In this document: piece by piece, positions 27,028 through 36,164 of the stretch
Layout of the letters: each line of letters begins with the position of its first letter
Position numbering within the stretch: position 1 is the stretch's first letter
The notes under the pieces: generated by a model
The model's input: only the letters and a program-made list of their open reading frames with translations
What the model was told of the DNA's origin: nothing
The model's database searches: none
Assembly (NCBI GenBank): GCA_001603275.1
Contig: LUYM01000016.1
Span: forward strand, 1 to 64,000
Reading direction: 5' to 3'
DNA from: Actinomycetales bacterium Actino_02
GTDB taxonomy: Bacteria; Actinomycetota; Actinomycetes; Propionibacteriales; Propionibacteriaceae
DNA length: 64,000 nucleotides
Program-made: the position numbers and the translations under genes

Positions 27028-27525
27028 TCAGTCGAGCGCGGCAGCCTTCGCATTCGCCATGGCGTCGGCGATTTCGGTCAGCAGATCGTCGGTGGAGGAC
27101 TCCTCGTCGAGGGTCTCGCCGAGCAGCTGTGCGGCCTGATCCAGCCCGAACAGGTAAGCCCAGCGACGCAGCGTCCCGTGGCGGGTGATCTCGTAGTGCT
27201 CGACGGCCTGGGCGGATGCGATCAGGGCAGCATCCCCAGCCGGGCTGCCCCCGAACTCGCGCAGCACCGAGCGGCCCTCCTTGAGGATGCCCTCGATCCC
27301 GTCACACTTCTTGGTGCTCGGCTCCTCGCCGAGCGCCCTGAATACCTGCTCCAGCCGGGCGATCTGGCCCTCGGTCTCGCCGCGGTGGTGGGCGAAGGCG
27401 TTGCGCAGCCGCTCGGACTCAGCGGCGGACTCCAGCTCGCTCAGCGATCCGAGAATCTCTTGCTCGGCGTAGTACACGTCCTGAAGGGTTTCCTTGAAGA
27501 GGTCTTCCAGTCCTTTGGTTCCCAT
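27028..27525 (-). CDS. DUF892 (YciE/YciF) ferritin-like stress protein
   Basis: 165 aa, four-helix ferritin-like fold of the DUF892 family: LEDLFKETLQDVYYAEQEIL, HHRGETEGQIARLEQVFRALGEEP, CDGIEGILKEG, and AQAVEHYEITRHGTL with Glu/His residues suited to a di-metal site. AAAGGAG lies before the ATG. A GTTA-N15-GGGTAC promoter sits upstream (27585-27561). YciE/F-like proteins are stress-induced in many bacteria. First gene of a cluster of stress-type genes. Confidence 0.88.
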   Translation of the reverse strand: MGTKGLEDLFKETLQDVYYAEQEILGSLSELESAAESERLRNAFAHHRGETEGQIARLEQVFRALGEEPSTKKCDGIEGILKEGRSVLREFGGSPAGDAALIASAQAVEHYEITRHGTLRRWAYLFGLDQAAQLLGETLDEESSTDDLLTEIADAMANAKAAALD

Positions 27526-27560: not shown

Positions 27561-27585
27561 GTACCCGGGAGCGTGTGGGGGTAAC
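27561..27585 (-). promoter_or_regulatory. SigB/SigF-type promoter of the DUF892 gene
   Basis: On the minus strand GTTA (27585-27582), 15 bp, GGGTAC (27566-27561). It is close to the GTTT-N15/16-GGGTAT consensus of SigB/SigF-type sigma factors and lies about 35 bp before the start codon. Confidence 0.6.
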
Positions 27586-27587
27586 GG

Positions 27588-27944
27588 CTAGGCCCGGTCG
27601 GTCTTGGGCCCGGGCAGGCCGGATGGGTAGAAGTCGGTTTCGCGCACGACCTCACCTTCGGCGGTGCGTGCCGCGCCGGTCCCGGCCTGGCCGGGCTGGT
27701 CGGAGGCCGGGTCGTCGCCGCCCTGCATCCGTTCAGCGACCGGCTCGGGATCTCCTGGATTCGGCTCCGGTGAGGGGGCCTCCTGCCAATCGCCGGTGTC
27801 GGTGCGTAGCGAGAGTCCTTCGTCGCCGGATGCGCTGCCCGACTCCTGAGTGGTGATGGTCGGCGTCGGCTCGGCGAGCTGTGCGGCGTCGTCCGGCTGG
27901 TCGGGATGGCGAGCCGATTCGGTCGGGGAATCGTTGTCTGTCAT
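27588..27944 (-). CDS. Small acidic, disordered protein of unknown function
   Basis: 118 aa from ATG at 27944, with GAAGAGG upstream. The sequence is rich in Asp, Glu, Pro, Ser and Thr (TESARHPDQPDDAAQLAEPTPTITTQESG) and has no hydrophobic segment, so it is probably cytoplasmic and disordered. A GGGTAC box lies upstream (27995-27990) but its -35 is poor. Its position between stress genes is the only clue to role. The frame can be extended to 28199 but that would overlap the divergent gene region. No family recognised. Confidence 0.6.
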   Translation of the reverse strand: MTDNDSPTESARHPDQPDDAAQLAEPTPTITTQESGSASGDEGLSLRTDTGDWQEAPSPEPNPGDPEPVAERMQGGDDPASDQPGQAGTGAARTAEGEVVRETDFYPSGLPGPKTDRA

Positions 27945-28017
27945 GGCGTCCTCTTCGGGTTCCGGTGGCCGGCTGGCCACTTCCGTCCAGTACCCAGCCG
28001 GGCGGAGCCGACTCCCT

Positions 28018-28043
28018 GTTTGGCCTTGCCGGAGGTGGGGTAT
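28018..28043 (+). promoter_or_regulatory. SigB/SigF-type promoter of the Rho-N-like gene
   Basis: GTTT (28018-28021), 16 bp, GGGTAT (28038-28043): an exact match to the general-stress consensus, about 155 bp before the start at 28198. Confidence 0.65.
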
Positions 28044-28197
28044 TGGCAAGTCGCGTCCGTGGGACGTCCGCGACCCCGCCCCTGCCAGAGCGCCCGGTGC
28101 CGGAGCCGACAACGAGGTCCGGCTCGGCATCGGGTCTTGTGCGTCGATCGCCGGCGAGGCGGGTACCGATGGGGCAACTCGACAAGGAGGAGTTGTC

Positions 28198-28467
28198 ATG
28201 CCAGAACGCCAGCCCGGGCCCTCCGTGAAGGACCCCGAACTCTATGAGGCGCTACGCGACGACGGAGCGAGCAAACAGAAGGCTGCCCGGATCGCCAATG
28301 CCGCCGCCAGGTCCTCGCGCAGCGAGGTTGGACGCAAGGGAGCCACGGCGGAGAATCTTCCCGACCGCACCCTGGCAGAGTTGCGCGATCGTGCGAAGGA
28401 ACTCGGCATCAAGGGACGGTCCCGAATGCGCAAGCAGCAGTTGATTGACGCCATACGCAACCACTAG
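28198..28467 (+). CDS. DUF7218-like protein with Rho N-terminal-type domain
   Basis: 89 aa with AAGGAGG before the ATG. The N-terminal half (KDPELYEALRDDGASKQKAARIANAAARSSRSEVGRKG) is the short motif found in many small actinobacterial stress proteins. The C-terminal half (RTLAELRDRAKELGIKGRSRMRKQQLIDAIRNH) is a Rho-N/SAP-like helix pair that could bind nucleic acid. It is strongly basic. An exact SigB/SigF-type promoter lies upstream. Function inferred as a stress-induced nucleic-acid-associated protein. Confidence 0.82.
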   Translation: MPERQPGPSVKDPELYEALRDDGASKQKAARIANAAARSSRSEVGRKGATAENLPDRTLAELRDRAKELGIKGRSRMRKQQLIDAIRNH

Positions 28468-28489
28468 GCCCGACCCGCATCGGGCCGAC

Positions 28490-28528
28490 GAAGACCCCGG
28501 ACGGAGCCAAAGCCGAGCCGGGGTCTTC
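28490..28528. terminator. Bidirectional terminator between convergent stress genes
   Basis: GAAGACCCCGG (28490-28500) pairs perfectly with CCGGGGTCTTC (28518-28528). A second hairpin GGCCCG/CGGGCC lies at 28467-28486. Genes end at 28467 (+) and 28551 (-). Confidence 0.75.
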
Positions 28529-28550
28529 GGGAATCAGGAACGCCGGACGA

Positions 28551-29702
28551 TCAGGCCAGTCGTCCGCGCAAACCGGTGAGGCCCACCGAGTCGACCGCCT
28601 CGGGGAGCACTCCGCGACGAGCCGGCCGGGTGTCACTGGCCAGACCGAGCGCGGCGGCCCCGACGAACCAGACGACGCCCACGGTGAGCATCGACCAGGT
28701 GATGCCGATCAGCTCGGCGAGGCCCAGGGCCACGCCGATTGAGATGAACTGCATCGCCAGCAGTGCGGTCACGCCCGAGGCAACCAGCAGCAGGGTGGCG
28801 CGGGGGAGTCCACTATCGATGCTCTGGCGGCGCAGCGGTGGCCGCGCCCCGGTGATCCCCGGGCCGCCGGTCAGCCCCGGAGCACCCGGGAGGGGGATGG
28901 TCGGCTCACCGCTCAGTCCGGGAGTAGGCATGGGCTCTCCCGCGCCGCCGCCGGGAACCGGAGGCTCGGGGAGCTCGGTGTCGGGGATCGGCGGCTCGGG
29001 TTCGTCCTCGCCGGGAATGTGCGGATCCGGAATGTCCGGGCCGGGCTCGGGCGGCAGCGGCAATGCGCCGCCGGGCGGGAACGGCGGCATCGCGGCAGCC
29101 AGGCCCGGCATCATCGGCGATGCTGCAGCGAACTCACTCAGGTCGAGACCGGCTTCAGGGATGTCCTCGGCCTCCGGGCCGAGATTGCCCGACCCGGACG
29201 GCTCGGGATCGACCACCTCGGAGTTGCCTGGCCCGGGGTTGCCTGAGCCGGACGGGAATTGTGCGGTACCGCTCGGCTCGTCGGCGTCCAGGTTTGGGCC
29301 CGGATTGCCCGAGCCCTCAGGGAACTGGGCGTTCTCCGGCGTCGCCTGAGTGCCAGGGCCGGGGTTCCCGGCAGCGGAGAGGTCTTCCGGGTTGGCATAG
29401 TCCGGTTCGTCGTAGTCAGACTCCTCAAGCACCTGCTCGAGCTCCGGGTCCGCGAGGCCGATGTCGGCCAGTCCACCGACATAGTCGGCTGAGTCGACGT
29501 AGTCCTGGGCGGGATCGTTGGGTCCTACGAGTGTTGGTGGGTAGTCCTCCTCGGCATCGGCCGAGGCGCTCTCGTAGGGATAGTCGTTCGCGGCCAGTGC
29601 GGCGTCGCCCTCAGACTGCTCGCTGGTGGCCACCGAGGGTTCGGTGTCGTCCAGCTCGTAGGCGTTGGCGCTGGTGCCCGGGTCGATGCTGTCGTTGTTC
29701 AT
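28551..29702 (-). CDS. Acidic Pro/Gly-rich protein with two C-terminal membrane helices
   Basis: 383 aa from ATG at 29702. Residues 1-100 are very acidic (ESASADAEEDYPPTL, LEQVLEESDYDEPDY). Residues 110-180 carry repeats of the form GSGNPGP (GNPGPGTQ, EGSGNPGPN, SGSGNPGPG, GSGNLGPE). A proline-rich stretch follows (GPDIPDPHIPGEDEPEPPIPDTELPEPPVPG), and then two hydrophobic helices near 305-360. No enzyme motif. A GTTT-N15-GGGTTA promoter lies upstream, placing it in the stress regulon. It may be a membrane-tethered disordered protein. No family recognised. Confidence 0.7.
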   Translation of the reverse strand: MNNDSIDPGTSANAYELDDTEPSVATSEQSEGDAALAANDYPYESASADAEEDYPPTLVGPNDPAQDYVDSADYVGGLADIGLADPELEQVLEESDYDEPDYANPEDLSAAGNPGPGTQATPENAQFPEGSGNPGPNLDADEPSGTAQFPSGSGNPGPGNSEVVDPEPSGSGNLGPEAEDIPEAGLDLSEFAAASPMMPGLAAAMPPFPPGGALPLPPEPGPDIPDPHIPGEDEPEPPIPDTELPEPPVPGGGAGEPMPTPGLSGEPTIPLPGAPGLTGGPGITGARPPLRRQSIDSGLPRATLLLVASGVTALLAMQFISIGVALGLAELIGITWSMLTVGVVWFVGAAALGLASDTRPARRGVLPEAVDSVGLTGLRGRLA

Positions 29703-29768
29703 CTCAACTCCGTCCTGCTGCCAAGGCAGCTGTCTGTCGGATGCCACGTTTTGCAGCATTCGAGTAAG

Positions 29769-29793
29769 TAACCCGCTTTCTGGTGGCTGAAAC
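29769..29793 (-). promoter_or_regulatory. SigB/SigF-type promoter of the acidic membrane protein gene
   Basis: Minus strand: GTTT (29793-29790), 15 bp, GGGTTA (29774-29769), about 66 bp before the ATG. Confidence 0.5.
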
Positions 29794-29824
29794 CGCTCCG
29801 CGTGGCAGTGCCGTCAATGGGGCC

Positions 29825-30700
29825 TCAGAAGGTCGGCAGGCCGCCGGTGACCCCGACGATGCTCCCCGACACGTAGGACGCCTCCAGCGGAGAGGCGAGG
29901 TACACGTAGGCGGGGGCCACCTCGGCTGGTTGGCCGGCCCTGCCCAAAGGTGAGCTGGTTCCGAAGCTGCTCACCTCGTCGGCGCTACGGGTGGCCGGCT
30001 GCAGCGGCGTCCAAATCGGGCCCGGAGCGACGGCGTTGACCCGGATTCCGCGGGGCCCGAGCTGCTCGGCGAGGGCGGCTGTGATCGCGTTGATCGCCGC
30101 TTTCGTCCCCGCATAGTCGATCATGTGCCCGGATGGGGCGTAGGCCTGGATCGAGCTGGTGTTGATGATGCAGGCGCCAGGGTCCAGGTGCGGCAGGGCA
30201 GCCTGGGTCAGCCACAAGGCTGCGGTCAGGTTGGTGTGAATCACCCGTTCGACGAGTTCGGGCTCCAACCCGTCGATCGTTCCACGACCGTCTCGGGTGT
30301 AGTGGAACCCGGCATTGTTCACCAGGACGTCCAGTCCGCCGAGCTGCTCGACGGCGGCTGCGATCACCGATCGACAGGCTTCGACCGAACGCAGATCAGC
30401 TGCGATCGAGAAGCCGTCGCGTCCGGCTCGCTCGACCCAGCGCAGGGTCTCGTCGGCGTCGGGTTGCTCCTCGGGCAGGTGCACGATGACCACATCGGCG
30501 CCTTCCCGGGCGTAGGCGATGGCCACCGCGCGCCCGATGCCGGAGTCGCCACCGGTGATCATCGCTCGCAGCCCAGTCATCCGGCCGTGGCCAACGTAGC
30601 TGTGCTCGCCGTGATCGGGCACTGGGCTCATCGGCTCGGTCAGCCCCGGAGGCTGCTGTTCCTGGGTTGGGAAGCCGGCCGGCTCGCTGCTTTCACTCAT
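29825..30700 (-). CDS. Short-chain dehydrogenase/reductase (YghA/YhdG-like stress SDR)
   Basis: 291 aa. Rossmann motif TGGDSGIGRA (GxxxGxG, about 48-57), NNAG (about 129-132), catalytic Ser (NTSSIQ), and YxxxK (YAGTK, about 195-199). The N-terminal 40-residue extension rich in Pro/Gln (FPTQEQQPPGL) is typical of the general-stress SDR subgroup. ATG at 30700 has no Shine-Dalgarno; a GGGTAT box ends only eight bases before it, so the mRNA is probably leaderless. It is divergent from csbD, and both promoters are of stress type. Substrate unknown. Confidence 0.87.
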   Translation of the reverse strand: MSESSEPAGFPTQEQQPPGLTEPMSPVPDHGEHSYVGHGRMTGLRAMITGGDSGIGRAVAIAYAREGADVVIVHLPEEQPDADETLRWVERAGRDGFSIAADLRSVEACRSVIAAAVEQLGGLDVLVNNAGFHYTRDGRGTIDGLEPELVERVIHTNLTAALWLTQAALPHLDPGACIINTSSIQAYAPSGHMIDYAGTKAAINAITAALAEQLGPRGIRVNAVAPGPIWTPLQPATRSADEVSSFGTSSPLGRAGQPAEVAPAYVYLASPLEASYVSGSIVGVTGGLPTF

Positions 30701-30708
30701 GACACCCA

Positions 30709-30733
30709 ATACCCAGCCTCGCCGAGGGCAACC
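30709..30733 (-). promoter_or_regulatory. SigB/SigF-type leaderless promoter of the SDR gene
   Basis: Minus strand: GGTT (30733-30730), 15 bp, GGGTAT (30714-30709), then eight bases to ATG. Confidence 0.6.
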
Positions 30734-30755
30734 TTCGATTGACGTTGTCGCACCA

Positions 30756-30781
30756 GTTTCGGCCGGAGACGACTCGGGTAC
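30756..30781 (+). promoter_or_regulatory. SigB/SigF-type promoter of csbD
   Basis: GTTT (30756-30759), 16 bp, GGGTAC (30776-30781), 32 bp before the csbD start. Confidence 0.65.
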
Positions 30782-30813
30782 TGAACCGACAACGGCAACG
30801 AGAGGAGCCCGTC

Positions 30814-31041
30814 ATGGGAATCGAAGATAAGGCCCGTCACGCAGTCGATGACACCAAGGGCAAGGTGAAGGAAGGCTGGGGCAAGCTCACCGATAACGAG
30901 CGGCTCGAGACGGAAGGCAAGCTCGATCAGGTGAAGGCAGCCGCCGGTAAGGCCGGCGAGGCCATCAAGGACGGCATCCGCGATGCCGCCGATCAGGCCG
31001 CAGAGGTCGGCCGCGACGTCATGGACAACGACAAGAACTGA
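30814..31041 (+). CDS. CsbD-family stress protein
   Basis: 75 aa, highly charged, all-helical. MGIEDKARHAVDDTKGKVKEGWGKLTDNERLETEGKLDQVKAAAGKAGEAIKD matches the CsbD family (B. subtilis CsbD is a SigB-dependent general-stress protein). GAGAGGAG lies before the ATG. A good stress-type promoter is 32 bp upstream. It ends three bases before a 33-residue membrane peptide gene and is probably cotranscribed with it. Molecular role of CsbD is unknown. Confidence 0.9.
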   Translation: MGIEDKARHAVDDTKGKVKEGWGKLTDNERLETEGKLDQVKAAAGKAGEAIKDGIRDAADQAAEVGRDVMDNDKN

Positions 31042-31044
31042 CTC

Positions 31045-31146
31045 ATGTCGGCCTCCCTGCTGTGGGTCTTCACGGGGGTGGTCGTGGCATCGGCCATGGT
31101 CGCAATAGGGTTACTGGCCGTCCCGCTGATCGGGGCGGCCGGCTGA
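31045..31146 (+). CDS. 33-residue single-helix membrane peptide downstream of csbD
   Basis: ATG at 31045 to TGA at 31146. The product, MSASLLWVFTGVVVASAM then VAIGLLAVPLIGAAG, is one hydrophobic helix with no charged residues. It begins three bases after the csbD stop and has no separate Shine-Dalgarno, so it would be translated by coupling, and the csbD terminator follows it. The fit between the csbD stop and the terminator and the coherent hydrophobicity support a real gene, but the length is marginal. Confidence 0.5.
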   Translation: MSASLLWVFTGVVVASAMVAIGLLAVPLIGAAG

Positions 31147-31175
31147 CCTGACAGCAATCCGTCAGCATTCGACTG

Positions 31176-31214
31176 CAACACCCGCTCCGGCCCGCTTTGC
31201 CGGTGCGGGTGTTG
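31176..31214 (+). terminator. Terminator of the csbD unit
   Basis: CAACACCCGC (31176-31185) pairs with GCGGGTGTTG (31205-31214), with a further CCGG/CCGG pairing inside the loop. Confidence 0.7.
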
Positions 31215-31332
31215 CGTGTGCGTATCCCTAGAAGTGCGCCTCGATCGGTTTGGCGTGCGGACGTAGATTCTCAGCATCGTCCGAGGAAGCACATCCGCCC
31301 AGGTAACCCAATCCGCCTGAAGGAGCTGACTG

Positions 31333-32454
31333 ATGGAGGCCGCGCATGTTGACGACGACCAGTTGCAAGGCAGCCAGCCGGTGAGTGCTGAGCAACTCGA
31401 TGCGGGCTTCAGCACCGCGTGGGCGGCGCTGGGGCGCATGCACGCGCCGGTGGACGTGTCGGAGGTGCTCGGGCTGCTGCGAGTGATCGCCGACAGTGTG
31501 ACCGACGGGGTATTGATCCTCGATCCGGCAGACCGTGTGGTCGGATTCAACCAGGCGTTCGCTGATCTCACCGGCTACTCTCCCGACGAAACACCCTTCG
31601 AGCCGCCATTCCCCTGGTGGCCGTCCGAGGTGGACAATCCAGCGGCGTATCAGCTTGTCGCAAGCACTTTGCGAGAGACCGGCTCGGGAGCACAGCTGCA
31701 GCGAGACCTGATCATTTTCCGCCGCGACGGACGACCGCTGGTCGTTCAGTCTCGGGGCGCGGGTCTGACCTCTCGTGACGGAACAGTCGTGGCCCGTCTG
31801 CGGATCGTCCGAGATCTCACCCGGGATCGCGCGGCACTGGAACACCGGCGCGAGGCCGCGCAGGCGGCCGTCAATCTGGCCACGGCGGACGATCTGGAGT
31901 CGCTGCTCGAGGCGGCCGAGTGCAGTTTCCGGCGGCTTTTTGACGGTGAGCCGACGATCTCGGTGCGCTCGGGCACCGAGAAGATCCTGTTCACCAAAGG
32001 CCTGTTTCGGCGGCCCCGTGAGGTGGCAGCCGACATCCGCGCGGCCTTGAAGGGCACTACCAGCCCAGACACGATCACTCACCGACCCGGTGTTCTGTTG
32101 TTGCCGGGCCTGCCGGGGGAGTGGCAGGCCAAGGCCTGGGTGCAGTTCCCACGTCCACGACGGATCGGACCCGACGAACTCGTCGTCGCCGACCTGCTGG
32201 CCCAGGCTCTCAGCAATGCGGTGCAACGGTTGGCCGACGCAGAACGTGCGGCGGGGCGTGAAGCACAGCTGGAGGAGGCTGTGGCCAGCCATCGCGTTGT
32301 CGGGCAGGCCGTCGGCATCCTCGTCGAACGCCATCGGATCCTGCCCGAGGATGCCTTCGACCGGCTGCGTGCCGCCAGTCAGGATCGGAATCTGCGGGTC
32401 CGTGAACTCGCTGAACGCATCCTCCAGACCGGCGAGGAACCGGACGTGGTCTGA
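31333..32454 (+). CDS. PAS/GAF-like sensor with C-terminal ANTAR RNA-binding domain
   Basis: 373 aa. PAS domain (about 55-165: VIADSVTDGVLILDPADRVVGFNQAFADLTGYSPDE), a GAF-like middle region (about 180-300), a coiled segment, and an ANTAR domain (about 310-370: LEEAVASHRVVGQAVGILVERHRILPEDAFDRLRAASQDRNLRVRELAERI). ANTAR domains bind paired hairpins in mRNA leaders and prevent termination. AAGGAG precedes the ATG. It lies in the stress island next to a sigma gene. Its RNA targets are not visible here. Its last codons form one arm of a shared terminator. Confidence 0.88.
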   Translation: MEAAHVDDDQLQGSQPVSAEQLDAGFSTAWAALGRMHAPVDVSEVLGLLRVIADSVTDGVLILDPADRVVGFNQAFADLTGYSPDETPFEPPFPWWPSEVDNPAAYQLVASTLRETGSGAQLQRDLIIFRRDGRPLVVQSRGAGLTSRDGTVVARLRIVRDLTRDRAALEHRREAAQAAVNLATADDLESLLEAAECSFRRLFDGEPTISVRSGTEKILFTKGLFRRPREVAADIRAALKGTTSPDTITHRPGVLLLPGLPGEWQAKAWVQFPRPRRIGPDELVVADLLAQALSNAVQRLADAERAAGREAQLEEAVASHRVVGQAVGILVERHRILPEDAFDRLRAASQDRNLRVRELAERILQTGEEPDVV

Positions 32455-32480
32455 GGGGTGTGGTCAGACCACGTCCGGTT
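32438..32480. terminator. 17-bp coding hairpin terminator shared by two convergent genes
   Basis: The 17 bases at 32438-32454 are the exact reverse complement of 32464-32480, with a 9-nt loop. Each arm ends at a stop codon, so both convergent genes end in the residues PDVV. Very strong bidirectional terminator. Confidence 0.8.
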
Positions 32481-32640
32481 GTGACGGATCAGGGTGCTCT
32501 TCGGGAGCGCCGCGGCCCGGCTGCTGCCCCGGGTCGCCCCAGTGGGGGTTGACCGGGGCGTCCGGCAGCGGGTCCGGATCGGTCGGGATCCGCGGCTGCT
32601 CGAGCGGCTCCTGGTCCGGGAATGGAACGCTGATGTTCAC
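32464..32640 (-). CDS. Small proline-rich protein coupled to the YHS gene
   Basis: 58 aa, GTG start in a GTGA overlap with the YHS-protein stop, a sign of translational coupling. The product (VNISVPFPDQEPLEQPRIPTD ... HWGDPGQQPGRGAPEEHPDP) is Pro-, Asp- and Glu-rich, without hydrophobic or catalytic features. Its end is fixed by the terminator arm. No family recognised. Confidence 0.5.
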   Translation of the reverse strand: MNISVPFPDQEPLEQPRIPTDPDPLPDAPVNPHWGDPGQQPGRGAPEEHPDPSQPDVV

Positions 32641-32798
32641 GAACCGGTGTTCCCGACGTAGCTGCCAGGGTCGGCCAGGAACTGGTCCCGGCACCCCTGG
32701 GAGCAGAACTGGTAGGTCTGCGCGTCGAAGGTTGCGCTGGCCGGAGCCAACTCGCTGTCGATCGTCATTCCGCAGACCGGGCATTCCACCATGGGCAT
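32637..32798 (-). CDS. YHS-domain small metal-binding protein
   Basis: 53 aa from ATG at 32798 with AAGGAG seven bases upstream. The whole protein is one YHS module: ECPVCGMTID (CxxC), then QTYQFCSQGCRDQFLADPGSYVG (CxxxC). Such domains occur in copper/heavy-metal and stress contexts, and the Cys residues can hold a metal. A GTTT-N15-GGGTAC promoter lies 37-61 bp upstream, putting it in the stress regulon. Confidence 0.85.
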   Translation of the reverse strand: MPMVECPVCGMTIDSELAPASATFDAQTYQFCSQGCRDQFLADPGSYVGNTGS

Positions 32799-32834
32799 CG
32801 CTGTTCTCCTTCCGCCGTGCACCGTGCAGATGCT

Positions 32835-32859
32835 GTACCCACCCTCGCCGGAGCCAAAC
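32835..32859 (-). promoter_or_regulatory. SigB/SigF-type promoter of the YHS gene
   Basis: Minus strand: GTTT (32859-32856), 15 bp, GGGTAC (32840-32835). Confidence 0.65.
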
Positions 32860-33068
32860 AGGTGGTGGCGAGATCTGTGGCATTGGCTTCCCTGCGTCGA
32901 TGGTCGTTGCCTGGTGTGAGCACCGTCAGGTCCGCTTTGTCGAGCCGGGGAGGACTACCAGGGATTGAGTAGAGGGCTTGTGAGGGCGGCAGTGCTGTGT
33001 GAGGGTCGAAGTAGTCGGGGGCGGTCAAGAAACGGCTGACCTCAGGCGTGATCCCTTCGGGAGTCGTC

Positions 33069-33836
33069 ATGCCAACAGCTCTATCCACAAGAAGAGACCG
33101 CCGAACGCAGTCGCTTCTCTCGACCCTCGCTCGCGTCGAAGACCCGAGCCGAAGGGCGGCGATCACCGCAGAGGTGGTCGAGTTGAATCTCGGTGTCTGC
33201 GATGCCGTTGCCAATCGTTTCGTCAATCGCGGTGTCGAGCGGGACGACCTGGTTCAGGTCGCTCGGCTGGCCCTGGTCAGGGCCGTCACCAGATTCCGAC
33301 TCGAAGCCGAGCGGCCGTTCCTGTCCTTTGCCGTTCCGACCATCACCGGAGAGCTCAAGCGCTACTTCCGCGACCACGGCTGGATGGTCCGCCCGCCGCG
33401 GTCGATCCAGGAGAGTCGAGCTCGCCTCGACCAGGTCGGACGCGACCTGGAGCAGGAACTCGGTCGCCCACCCAGGATCTCCGAGCTCGCTGCCGTGACC
33501 CGGCAGGAGCACCGGGAGGTCGCGGAAGTCTTGTCCGCAGGCGGCGGTTACCATCCGCTGTCGCTGGAGGCGCCGCTCGACGGGCGTAGCGCGCAGGCCA
33601 CCATCGGCGACGTGCTCCCGGTCGAAGACCAGGAGCTGGAGTCGCTGCCGGAACGCTTGACGCTTCGTGATGCGCTCAGCTCACTGCGCCCGATCGATCG
33701 AGTGGTGGTGGAGTGGAGGTTCGCCGAAGAGTGCAGCCAAAGTGAGATCGCCCGGCGTTTGGGAGTCTCCCAGATGCAGGTCTCACGCATGCTGCGCCGA
33801 ATCCTCGCCCAGCTGCGGGAGTCCGTGGGGAGTTGA
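33069..33836 (+). CDS. SigB/SigF/SigG-family sigma factor
   Basis: 255 aa. Region 2 (about 35-100: LNLGVCDAVANRFVNRGVERDDLVQVARLALVRAVTRFRLEAERPFLSFAVPTITGELKRYFRDHGW) and RPPRSIQE, region 3 (LGRPPRISELAAVTRQEHREVAEVLSA), region 4 with HTH (about 200-250: SLRPIDRVVVEWRFAEECSQSEIARRLGVSQMQVSRMLRRIL). This is the SigB/SigF general-stress or developmental group. ATG at 33069 has GGGAG upstream; an in-frame GTG at 33048 is an alternative. No anti-sigma or anti-anti-sigma gene is adjacent. Nearby stress promoters match its expected consensus, so it may control them. Confidence 0.88.
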   Translation: MPTALSTRRDRRTQSLLSTLARVEDPSRRAAITAEVVELNLGVCDAVANRFVNRGVERDDLVQVARLALVRAVTRFRLEAERPFLSFAVPTITGELKRYFRDHGWMVRPPRSIQESRARLDQVGRDLEQELGRPPRISELAAVTRQEHREVAEVLSAGGGYHPLSLEAPLDGRSAQATIGDVLPVEDQELESLPERLTLRDALSSLRPIDRVVVEWRFAEECSQSEIARRLGVSQMQVSRMLRRILAQLRESVGS

Positions 33837-34982: not shown

Positions 34983-35900
34983 TCAGCTGTGGGCGACCAC
35001 GTTGTCCAGCGGCTCACCGGCCAGCAGATGCTCCAGCTGGCGACGCAACAGGGCGGCCACTCGCGGGTAGGTGGCATCGGAGTTTCCGCCTTGATGGGCG
35101 GTGATGATCGTGTTCGGGGCGTGCCACAACGGGTGATCGGTGGGCAGCGGTTCCGGATCGGTCACATCCAGTGCCGCCCGTAGCCGTCCACTGTTCAGCT
35201 CCGCGAGCAAGGCCTCGGTGTCCACGACCCGTCCACGTGCGACATTGACCACCAGTGCGCCGTCGGGAAGTGCGGCCAGGCGTCCGGCGTCGAGCAGTTG
35301 GTGGGTCTGCGGTGAGTAGGGGACCGTCAGTACCACGATGTCGGCCTGTCCGAGCAGGTCGCTCAGCTCGTCGATCCCGTGCACGCCCGGACGAGCTGTC
35401 CGGCCCACCACTGTGATCTCGACCTCGAAGGGGCGTAGCCGCTCGATCACCGCCTGAGCCACCGAGCCTGCTCCGACCACCAGCACCCGGCGATCGGCCA
35501 GCGACGGCAACTCCGGGTTGAACCAGCGTCCCTCCCGCTGGGCCTCCAGCGCCTCGGCAAGGCCGCGTTGAGCCGCCAGGATCAGCGCCACCGCAAGCTC
35601 GGCTGTGCCCGTGGAGTGCACGCCGCGGCCATTGCACAACGTGACTCCGGGCGGAATCAGCGGTAGCGCGTGGTCGAAGCCGGCCGAGGGGAGTTGCACG
35701 TAACGCAAGTTCGGCACCTCAGCCAATCGGCGCCAACGGTCCGGCTTCACCCAATAGTGACCGATCTGGACCATGCGCACCCGTTCGGCAACATCGGGGG
35801 GCAGCGGCGAGAGCAGGTCCCACAGGACCAGCTCGACCCGGCCCGAAAGGTCTTGCAGACGGTCCAGCAAGTCGGTGTCAGGGACGGTCACAGTCAGCAC
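34983..35900 (-). CDS. D-2-hydroxyacid dehydrogenase (NAD-dependent)
   Basis: 305 aa. NAD-binding Rossmann region VLVVGAGSVAQAVIERLRPF (GxGxxx), conserved Arg in NVARGRVVDTEAL (about 225), Glu/Asp in ALDVTDPEPLPTDHPLW and His in ITAHQGG (about 280), the usual R-E-H arrangement of the family. GTG at 35900 is chosen for its AGGAAC site; the frame runs further upstream without support. Substrate unclear: family members act on glyoxylate, hydroxypyruvate, phosphoglycerate and others. Confidence 0.88.
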   Translation of the reverse strand: MLTVTVPDTDLLDRLQDLSGRVELVLWDLLSPLPPDVAERVRMVQIGHYWVKPDRWRRLAEVPNLRYVQLPSAGFDHALPLIPPGVTLCNGRGVHSTGTAELAVALILAAQRGLAEALEAQREGRWFNPELPSLADRRVLVVGAGSVAQAVIERLRPFEVEITVVGRTARPGVHGIDELSDLLGQADIVVLTVPYSPQTHQLLDAGRLAALPDGALVVNVARGRVVDTEALLAELNSGRLRAALDVTDPEPLPTDHPLWHAPNTIITAHQGGNSDATYPRVAALLRRQLEHLLAGEPLDNVVAHS

Positions 35901-36164
35901 GTTCCTGAGTCTGTCAGTTCGTCCGTCTGACTTGCGACGATGGTCTCTGGACGGGACGCCAACGTCCCCGGATGGGGGGCCGCTTTTGGCCCGCAATAAC
36001 CCTCAACCCCTAGTCAGCAAACCCTCAAGTAACTCTGTGCACTCCTGTCACGGCTGCCAGACTCACAAACACCGGCCCCCAGCAGGAGACCGGTGGTGCC
36101 CGTCCCGGGCGCGCCAGCAGCTGCTGAAGTACCCCCACTCAGCAGCACGGAGAAGGGTGAGGCG

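Follow-up and report, generated by a model that had tools for sequence, protein, structure and literature searches.

An island of about 6 kb in the 64-kb window (the whole stretch of DNA that was analysed) is, judged from its sequence, very probably the core of a SigB/SigF-type stress regulon, whose promoters would be read by the sigma factor encoded beside them. A general-stress regulon next to this sigma gene had been proposed in the initial annotation. The concentration of promoters, the conservation of their boxes and the joint occurrence of sigma and csbD support this proposal, and its stress part follows from knowledge of the sigma family. The features are listed in the table.

Table. 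Promoter-like elements, genes and further features of the island, with related loci in other genomes of the genus. Positions refer to the window unless a locus (L) is given.
Feature	Position	Strand	Form or length	Basis
DUF892 (ferritin-like family) gene	27028-27525	-	165 aa	PF05974, E=9.3e-53
DUF892 element	27561-27586	-	CGTTA-N15-GGGTAC	matrix score 12.07, top 0.7% of background
118-aa uncharacterised acidic protein gene	27588-27944	-	118 aa	no Pfam match
Rho-N element	28017-28043	+	TGTTT-N16-GGGTAT	exact match; matrix score 17.07; kept in G015
Hairpin in the long Rho-N leader	28093-28134	+		alignment and fold of window and G015 leaders
DUF7218 + Rho_N domain protein	28198-28467	+	89 aa	PF23855, E=7.9e-23; PF07498, E=1.3e-11
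Acidic, proline-rich protein, C-terminal membrane part Holin-X-like	28551-29702	-		start codon uncertain; G015 orthologue
Acidic membrane gene element	29768-29794	-	GGTTT-N16-GGTTAC or N15-GGGTTA	matrix score 11.98
Short-chain dehydrogenase/reductase (SDR)	29825-30700	-	291 aa	PF13561, E=2.2e-54
SDR element	30709-30734	-	GGTTG-N14-GGGTAT	matrix score 9.93, top 2.7% of background
csbD element	30755-30781	+	AGTTT-N16-GGGTAC	exact match; matrix score 12.6
CsbD-family protein	30814-31041	+	75 aa	PF05532, E=1.2e-14
PAS-ANTAR protein	31333-32454	+	373 aa	PF03861, E=1.9e-17; PF00989, E=2.1e-08
YHS-domain protein	32637-32801	-	54 aa	PF04945, E=6.2e-10
YHS element	32835-32860	-	TGTTT-N15-GGGTAC	exact match; matrix score 18.12, above every background gene
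SigB/SigF-type group-3 sigma factor gene	33069-33836	+	255 aa	Pfam, TIGR02980, one-clade genus orthologues
PAS-ANTAR loci in relatives	L054 6813-9530; L061 17078-18478; L140 5144-6091
Ferritin-like (Dps-type) gene near sigma	L054 14331-14840; also L056, L057, L059, L061

All six elements that the initial annotation had described as GTTT-like and GGGTAY-like boxes 15-16 bp apart were found in place; three match GTTT-N15/16-GGGTAY exactly and the other three deviate from it in the -35 box, the -10 box or the spacer. To avoid circularity, the scoring matrix was trained only on csbD promoters from the genus, taken from 11 genomes other than that of the window. The background consisted of 292 upstream regions, predicted within 400 kb from other parts of the window's genome; here the 95th percentile of the matrix score was 9.4 and the 99th percentile 10.8. 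The island sites scored from 9.9 (SDR) to 18.1 (YHS), and all six rank within the top 0-2.7% of the background regions. Having six of the nine island genes at the top-2.7% level corresponds to a p-value of ~3e-8; when csbD is left out, five of eight genes remain (p ~8e-7). No sigma-70-type promoters were found in the island region.

The SDR element ends 8 nt upstream of the start codon (ATG, 30700), and in the nearest relative (G015) GGGTAT ends 9 nt upstream of the ATG of the corresponding gene, which suggests a leaderless mRNA in both. For the acidic membrane protein, the Holin-X model (PF07332) gave 25.9 bits, below the cut-off of 28.4. The 118-aa gene was absent from the initial list and is probably a seventh member of the regulon: in the window, a GGGTAC -10-like box with a poor -35 lies upstream of it at about 27990-27995, the -10 alone is likewise present in G015, and the orthologues in G008 and G010 carry a full element (scores 14.4 and 15.0). 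Directly 3' of csbD lies a frame of 33 codons (31045-31146), apparently for a small membrane protein; to judge from conserved antisense frames, several relatives seem to have a similar small gene after csbD.

The sigma gene, which has an alternative in-frame GTG start at 33048, encodes regions 2, 3 and 4 (Pfam Sigma70_r2, r3 and r4, all above the cut-offs) and does not have the long N-terminal extension of primary sigma factors. Its top curated family is TIGR02980 (SigB/SigF/SigG) with 230.1 bits, compared to 82.5 bits for FliA/WhiG and 62.2 bits for RpoD_Cterm. Since this is 4 bits short of the curated cut-off of 234.35 bits, the SigB/SigF type is claimed here and the formal family name is not. 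With these regions and this best family, the SigB/SigF-family sigma gene of the initial annotation was borne out, though below the cut-off. TIGR02980 also matches all 12 orthologues in the genus. Top matches among solved structures were 8x6g_H (“RNA polymerase sigma factor”) and 1l0o_C (“sigma factor”). In the genome, the TIGR02980 profile search found this as the single SigB/SigF-type sigma.

We infer that this sigma reads the six promoters and that stress is the trigger. The sigma would join RNA polymerase and guide it to xGTTT-N15/16-GGGTA(Y) promoters in front of the csbD, YHS, DUF892, Rho-N, acidic membrane and SDR genes and probably the 118-aa gene. A few further targets would lie outside the island: two membrane proteins, one with a LapA domain and one small. 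As in the analogous systems of mycobacteria, Streptomyces and Bacillus, transcription would take place under stress, and the products of the regulon look like ordinary stress-protection proteins.

Before the sigma gene itself, no promoter of its own type was found (matrix score 4.8), nor was a sigma-type element found before the PAS-ANTAR gene (upstream score 5.2). Both values are at background level and, thus, give no sign of local autoregulation; the activity of the sigma would most likely be set after translation, via an unlinked regulator or a linked sensor. An RsbW-type anti-sigma gene adjacent to the sigma gene is typical, not strictly defining, for this type; no RsbW or RsbV was present among the conserved neighbours, and there was no adjacent HATPase_c_2 or STAS match. 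The sole single-domain RsbV-RsbW pair of the genome is located on contig 21 (51576-52233; L141, L172), far from the sigma gene, and a similar pair exists in G008. As the cognate switch, the contig-21 pair is possible, but it was not adopted for two reasons. In G015, no single-domain pair was found though sigma and promoters are kept (STAS matches are in frames of 584 and 599 aa, HATPase_c_2 matches in frames of at least 385 aa), and the sigma-less genome G004 carries an RsbW-like gene similar to the one on contig 21.

The PAS-ANTAR protein is a candidate for the input to the sigma. Its gene is linked to sigma or csbD in six genomes (the window's own, G015, G005, G001, G016 and G010), and a search of genus genomes without sigma did not find it. 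In G001, the protein is part of a fusion with a histidine kinase and a receiver, in G016 with a receiver. Together with the persistence of sigma and promoters in G015 without a single-domain RsbV-RsbW pair, these observations would fit a real regulon in which the linked PAS-ANTAR protein, and not an RsbW/RsbV partner switch, passes the signal to the sigma. We consider this route unlikely, however, as the sigma-bearing genomes G002, G007 and G008 yielded no close PAS-ANTAR homologue and a distant RsbW may have been missed. Furthermore, ANTAR domains are RNA-binding antiterminators, but no ANTAR-type RNA target (paired hexaloop hairpins with the A..G pattern) was detected in the Rho-N, PAS-ANTAR, sigma, csbD and DUF892 leaders.

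A regulon read by the neighbouring sigma is supported by the conservation of the boxes in the genus. All 12 genus genomes examined, that of the window included, have xGTT(T/A)-N15/16-GGGTA in front of csbD, at a distance of 31-41 nt from its start codon. In G015, whose sigma is 83% identical to that of the window, the boxes before the YHS, acidic membrane and Rho-N genes are kept, and spacers and flanks have diverged; the element of the acidic membrane orthologue reads GGTTT-N16-GGCTAC there (score 15.5). A GGGTA box before DUF892 is also found in G015, G010 and G001. The DUF892 genes of the latter two have GGGTA plus a usable -35 and were not found in the sigma neighbourhoods compared. In a Nocardioides locus (L017), GGTGT-N15-GGGTAC stands upstream of a Rho-N homologue about 1.3 kb from the sigma gene. 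The element is absent before the YHS genes of G007, G008 and G005; hence, regulon membership is not fixed. Five other genus genomes have a ferritin-like (Dps-type) gene near the sigma gene; no such gene belongs to the window's island.

A sigma orthologue was found in 12 of the 25 genus genomes searched, including that of the window, and the 12 orthologues form one clade in the sigma tree (support 97/99), which is stable with two very long rows that may be wrong-strand translations. Among the first 16 genus genomes, csbD was present in 9/9 with sigma and in 1/7 without sigma (Fisher p=0.0009), whereby the incompleteness of several genus genomes weakens the absences. The single sigma-less genome with csbD (G009) has a perfect element before this gene, yet its assembly yielded no SigB/SigF-type sigma. 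This case speaks for promoters which are real and mainly read by another sigma, the neighbouring sigma gene being a bystander. Such a reading is quite improbable given the co-occurrence of sigma and csbD across the genus. In addition, the csbD contig of G009 breaks off within a partial PAS gene, under 1 kb past csbD, so that its sigma may be unassembled. In the genome of the window, TIGR02980 matches, down to E 1e-8, no more than two further sigmas, both on contig 14, which reach 120-133 bits, show ~31% identity to the query sigma or no match, and look primary-type.

On both strands of the whole genome (3,053,133 bases), there are 8 exact matches to GTTT-N15/16-GGGTAY, with 5 matches for the reversed-pattern control. 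Three of the eight are inside the 6.3-kb island, and two of those outside precede the genes of the LapA-domain membrane protein and the apparent small membrane protein. For KGTTT-N15/16-GGGTWH, 10 matches were counted genome-wide versus 1 in the reversed control, with 3 in the island. At a simple consensus score of at least 10, the window contains 6 sites (1.0 expected window-wide), 5 of which belong to the island. An equal frequency of the motif before unrelated genes, named in the initial annotation as evidence against the regulon, was checked for and not seen; the sites are concentrated at the island. Elements of the form GTTT-N14-17-GGGTA were accordingly found before the targets, above chance and conserved. 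In the relatives, totals of the exact pattern are near the control and three of the matches in G015 cluster at its sigma gene. One recurrent match in the relatives, GTTTACGGCGTGGACTACCAGGGTAT, is presumably 16S rRNA. A chance origin of the elements in G+C-rich DNA is hardly conceivable: GGGT-rich words are common at 67% G+C, the exact pattern has no genome-wide excess, and at loose consensus scores of 8-9 the window sites are no more numerous than in shuffled sequence, but the exact and near-exact forms cluster in the island, and their conservation between species extends to a fixed spacing from the start codon.

Contrary to what had been noted initially, metabolic genes were not strictly free of the element. 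A good match (GGTTT-N16-GGGTTA) at 35997-36023 on the minus strand precedes the gene of a 2-hydroxyacid dehydrogenase (34986-35903) by 126 nt. Its -10 is not kept in G015 despite conserved flanks; thus, this gene is probably not a target and the match was left out as a regulon promoter.

In G015, the hairpin of the Rho-N leader has nearly the same sequence, and one compensatory change from A-U to G-C keeps the pair. The G015 counterpart (L051 13790-14062, minus strand) has no Rho-N reading frame; promoter, hairpin and the following inverted repeat are kept. Neither in the window nor in any locus examined was the hairpin found more than once, and Rfam gave nothing credible near the island. From the two sequences compared, the hairpin may be a small RNA, a leader element or what a recent deletion has left behind. 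There is a small chance that the sigma in this genus has dropped adjacent RsbV/RsbW and receives its input via PAS-ANTAR, and that, in addition, the Rho-N promoter drives a structured RNA which outlived the coding sequence in G015.

As a SigB/SigF-type regulon, the island can be compared to three described systems. SigF promoters of Mycobacterium smegmatis have the form GTTT-N(14-19)-GGGTA (PMC4694148), and GGWWT-N16-17-GGGTAY has been given for mycobacterial SigF promoters (PMC7693655); the promoter form of the island elements agrees with both. Many M. smegmatis SigF promoters are 8-11 nt before the start codon, as is that of the island SDR, and the targets include oxidoreductase/dehydrogenase and membrane proteins. 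In contrast, sigF of M. smegmatis is cotranscribed with an anti-sigma gene (PMC7693655), whereas the island sigma is without adjacent RsbW/RsbV and reaches only 207.5 bits with the mycobacterial SigF model PRK07122, below the cut-off of 372. The mycobacterial SigF switch receives input from the RsfSR two-component system (PMC10950880). Promoters of SigB homologues in Streptomyces coelicolor, GTTTGC...GGGTAC and GTTTCC...GGGTAT (PMC8346170), share the GTTT-like and GGGTA-like boxes with the island. S. coelicolor has nine cross-reacting SigB homologues, unlike the genome of the window with its single SigB/SigF-type sigma found. Sigma B promoters of Bacillus subtilis, GTTTAA-N12-14-GGG(A/T)A(A/T) (quoted in PMC8346170), are similar in form, and expression of CsbD is mediated by sigma B (stated in PMC6828939), with csbD also being part of the island. 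However, no rsb operon lies beside the island sigma, and the Sigma_B model TIGR02941 gave 140 bits with a cut-off of 315.

The kind of regulon is already known, and the island adds an ordinary further example which is well supported by sequence. A sigma gene without an adjacent anti-sigma gene raises the question of its control. The regulon would place DUF892, DUF7218/Rho-N, 118-aa acidic, YHS and Holin-X-like membrane proteins in one regulatory unit. It is compact, and as approximately half of the examined genomes of the genus have the sigma and half are without it, the genus offers a natural experiment.
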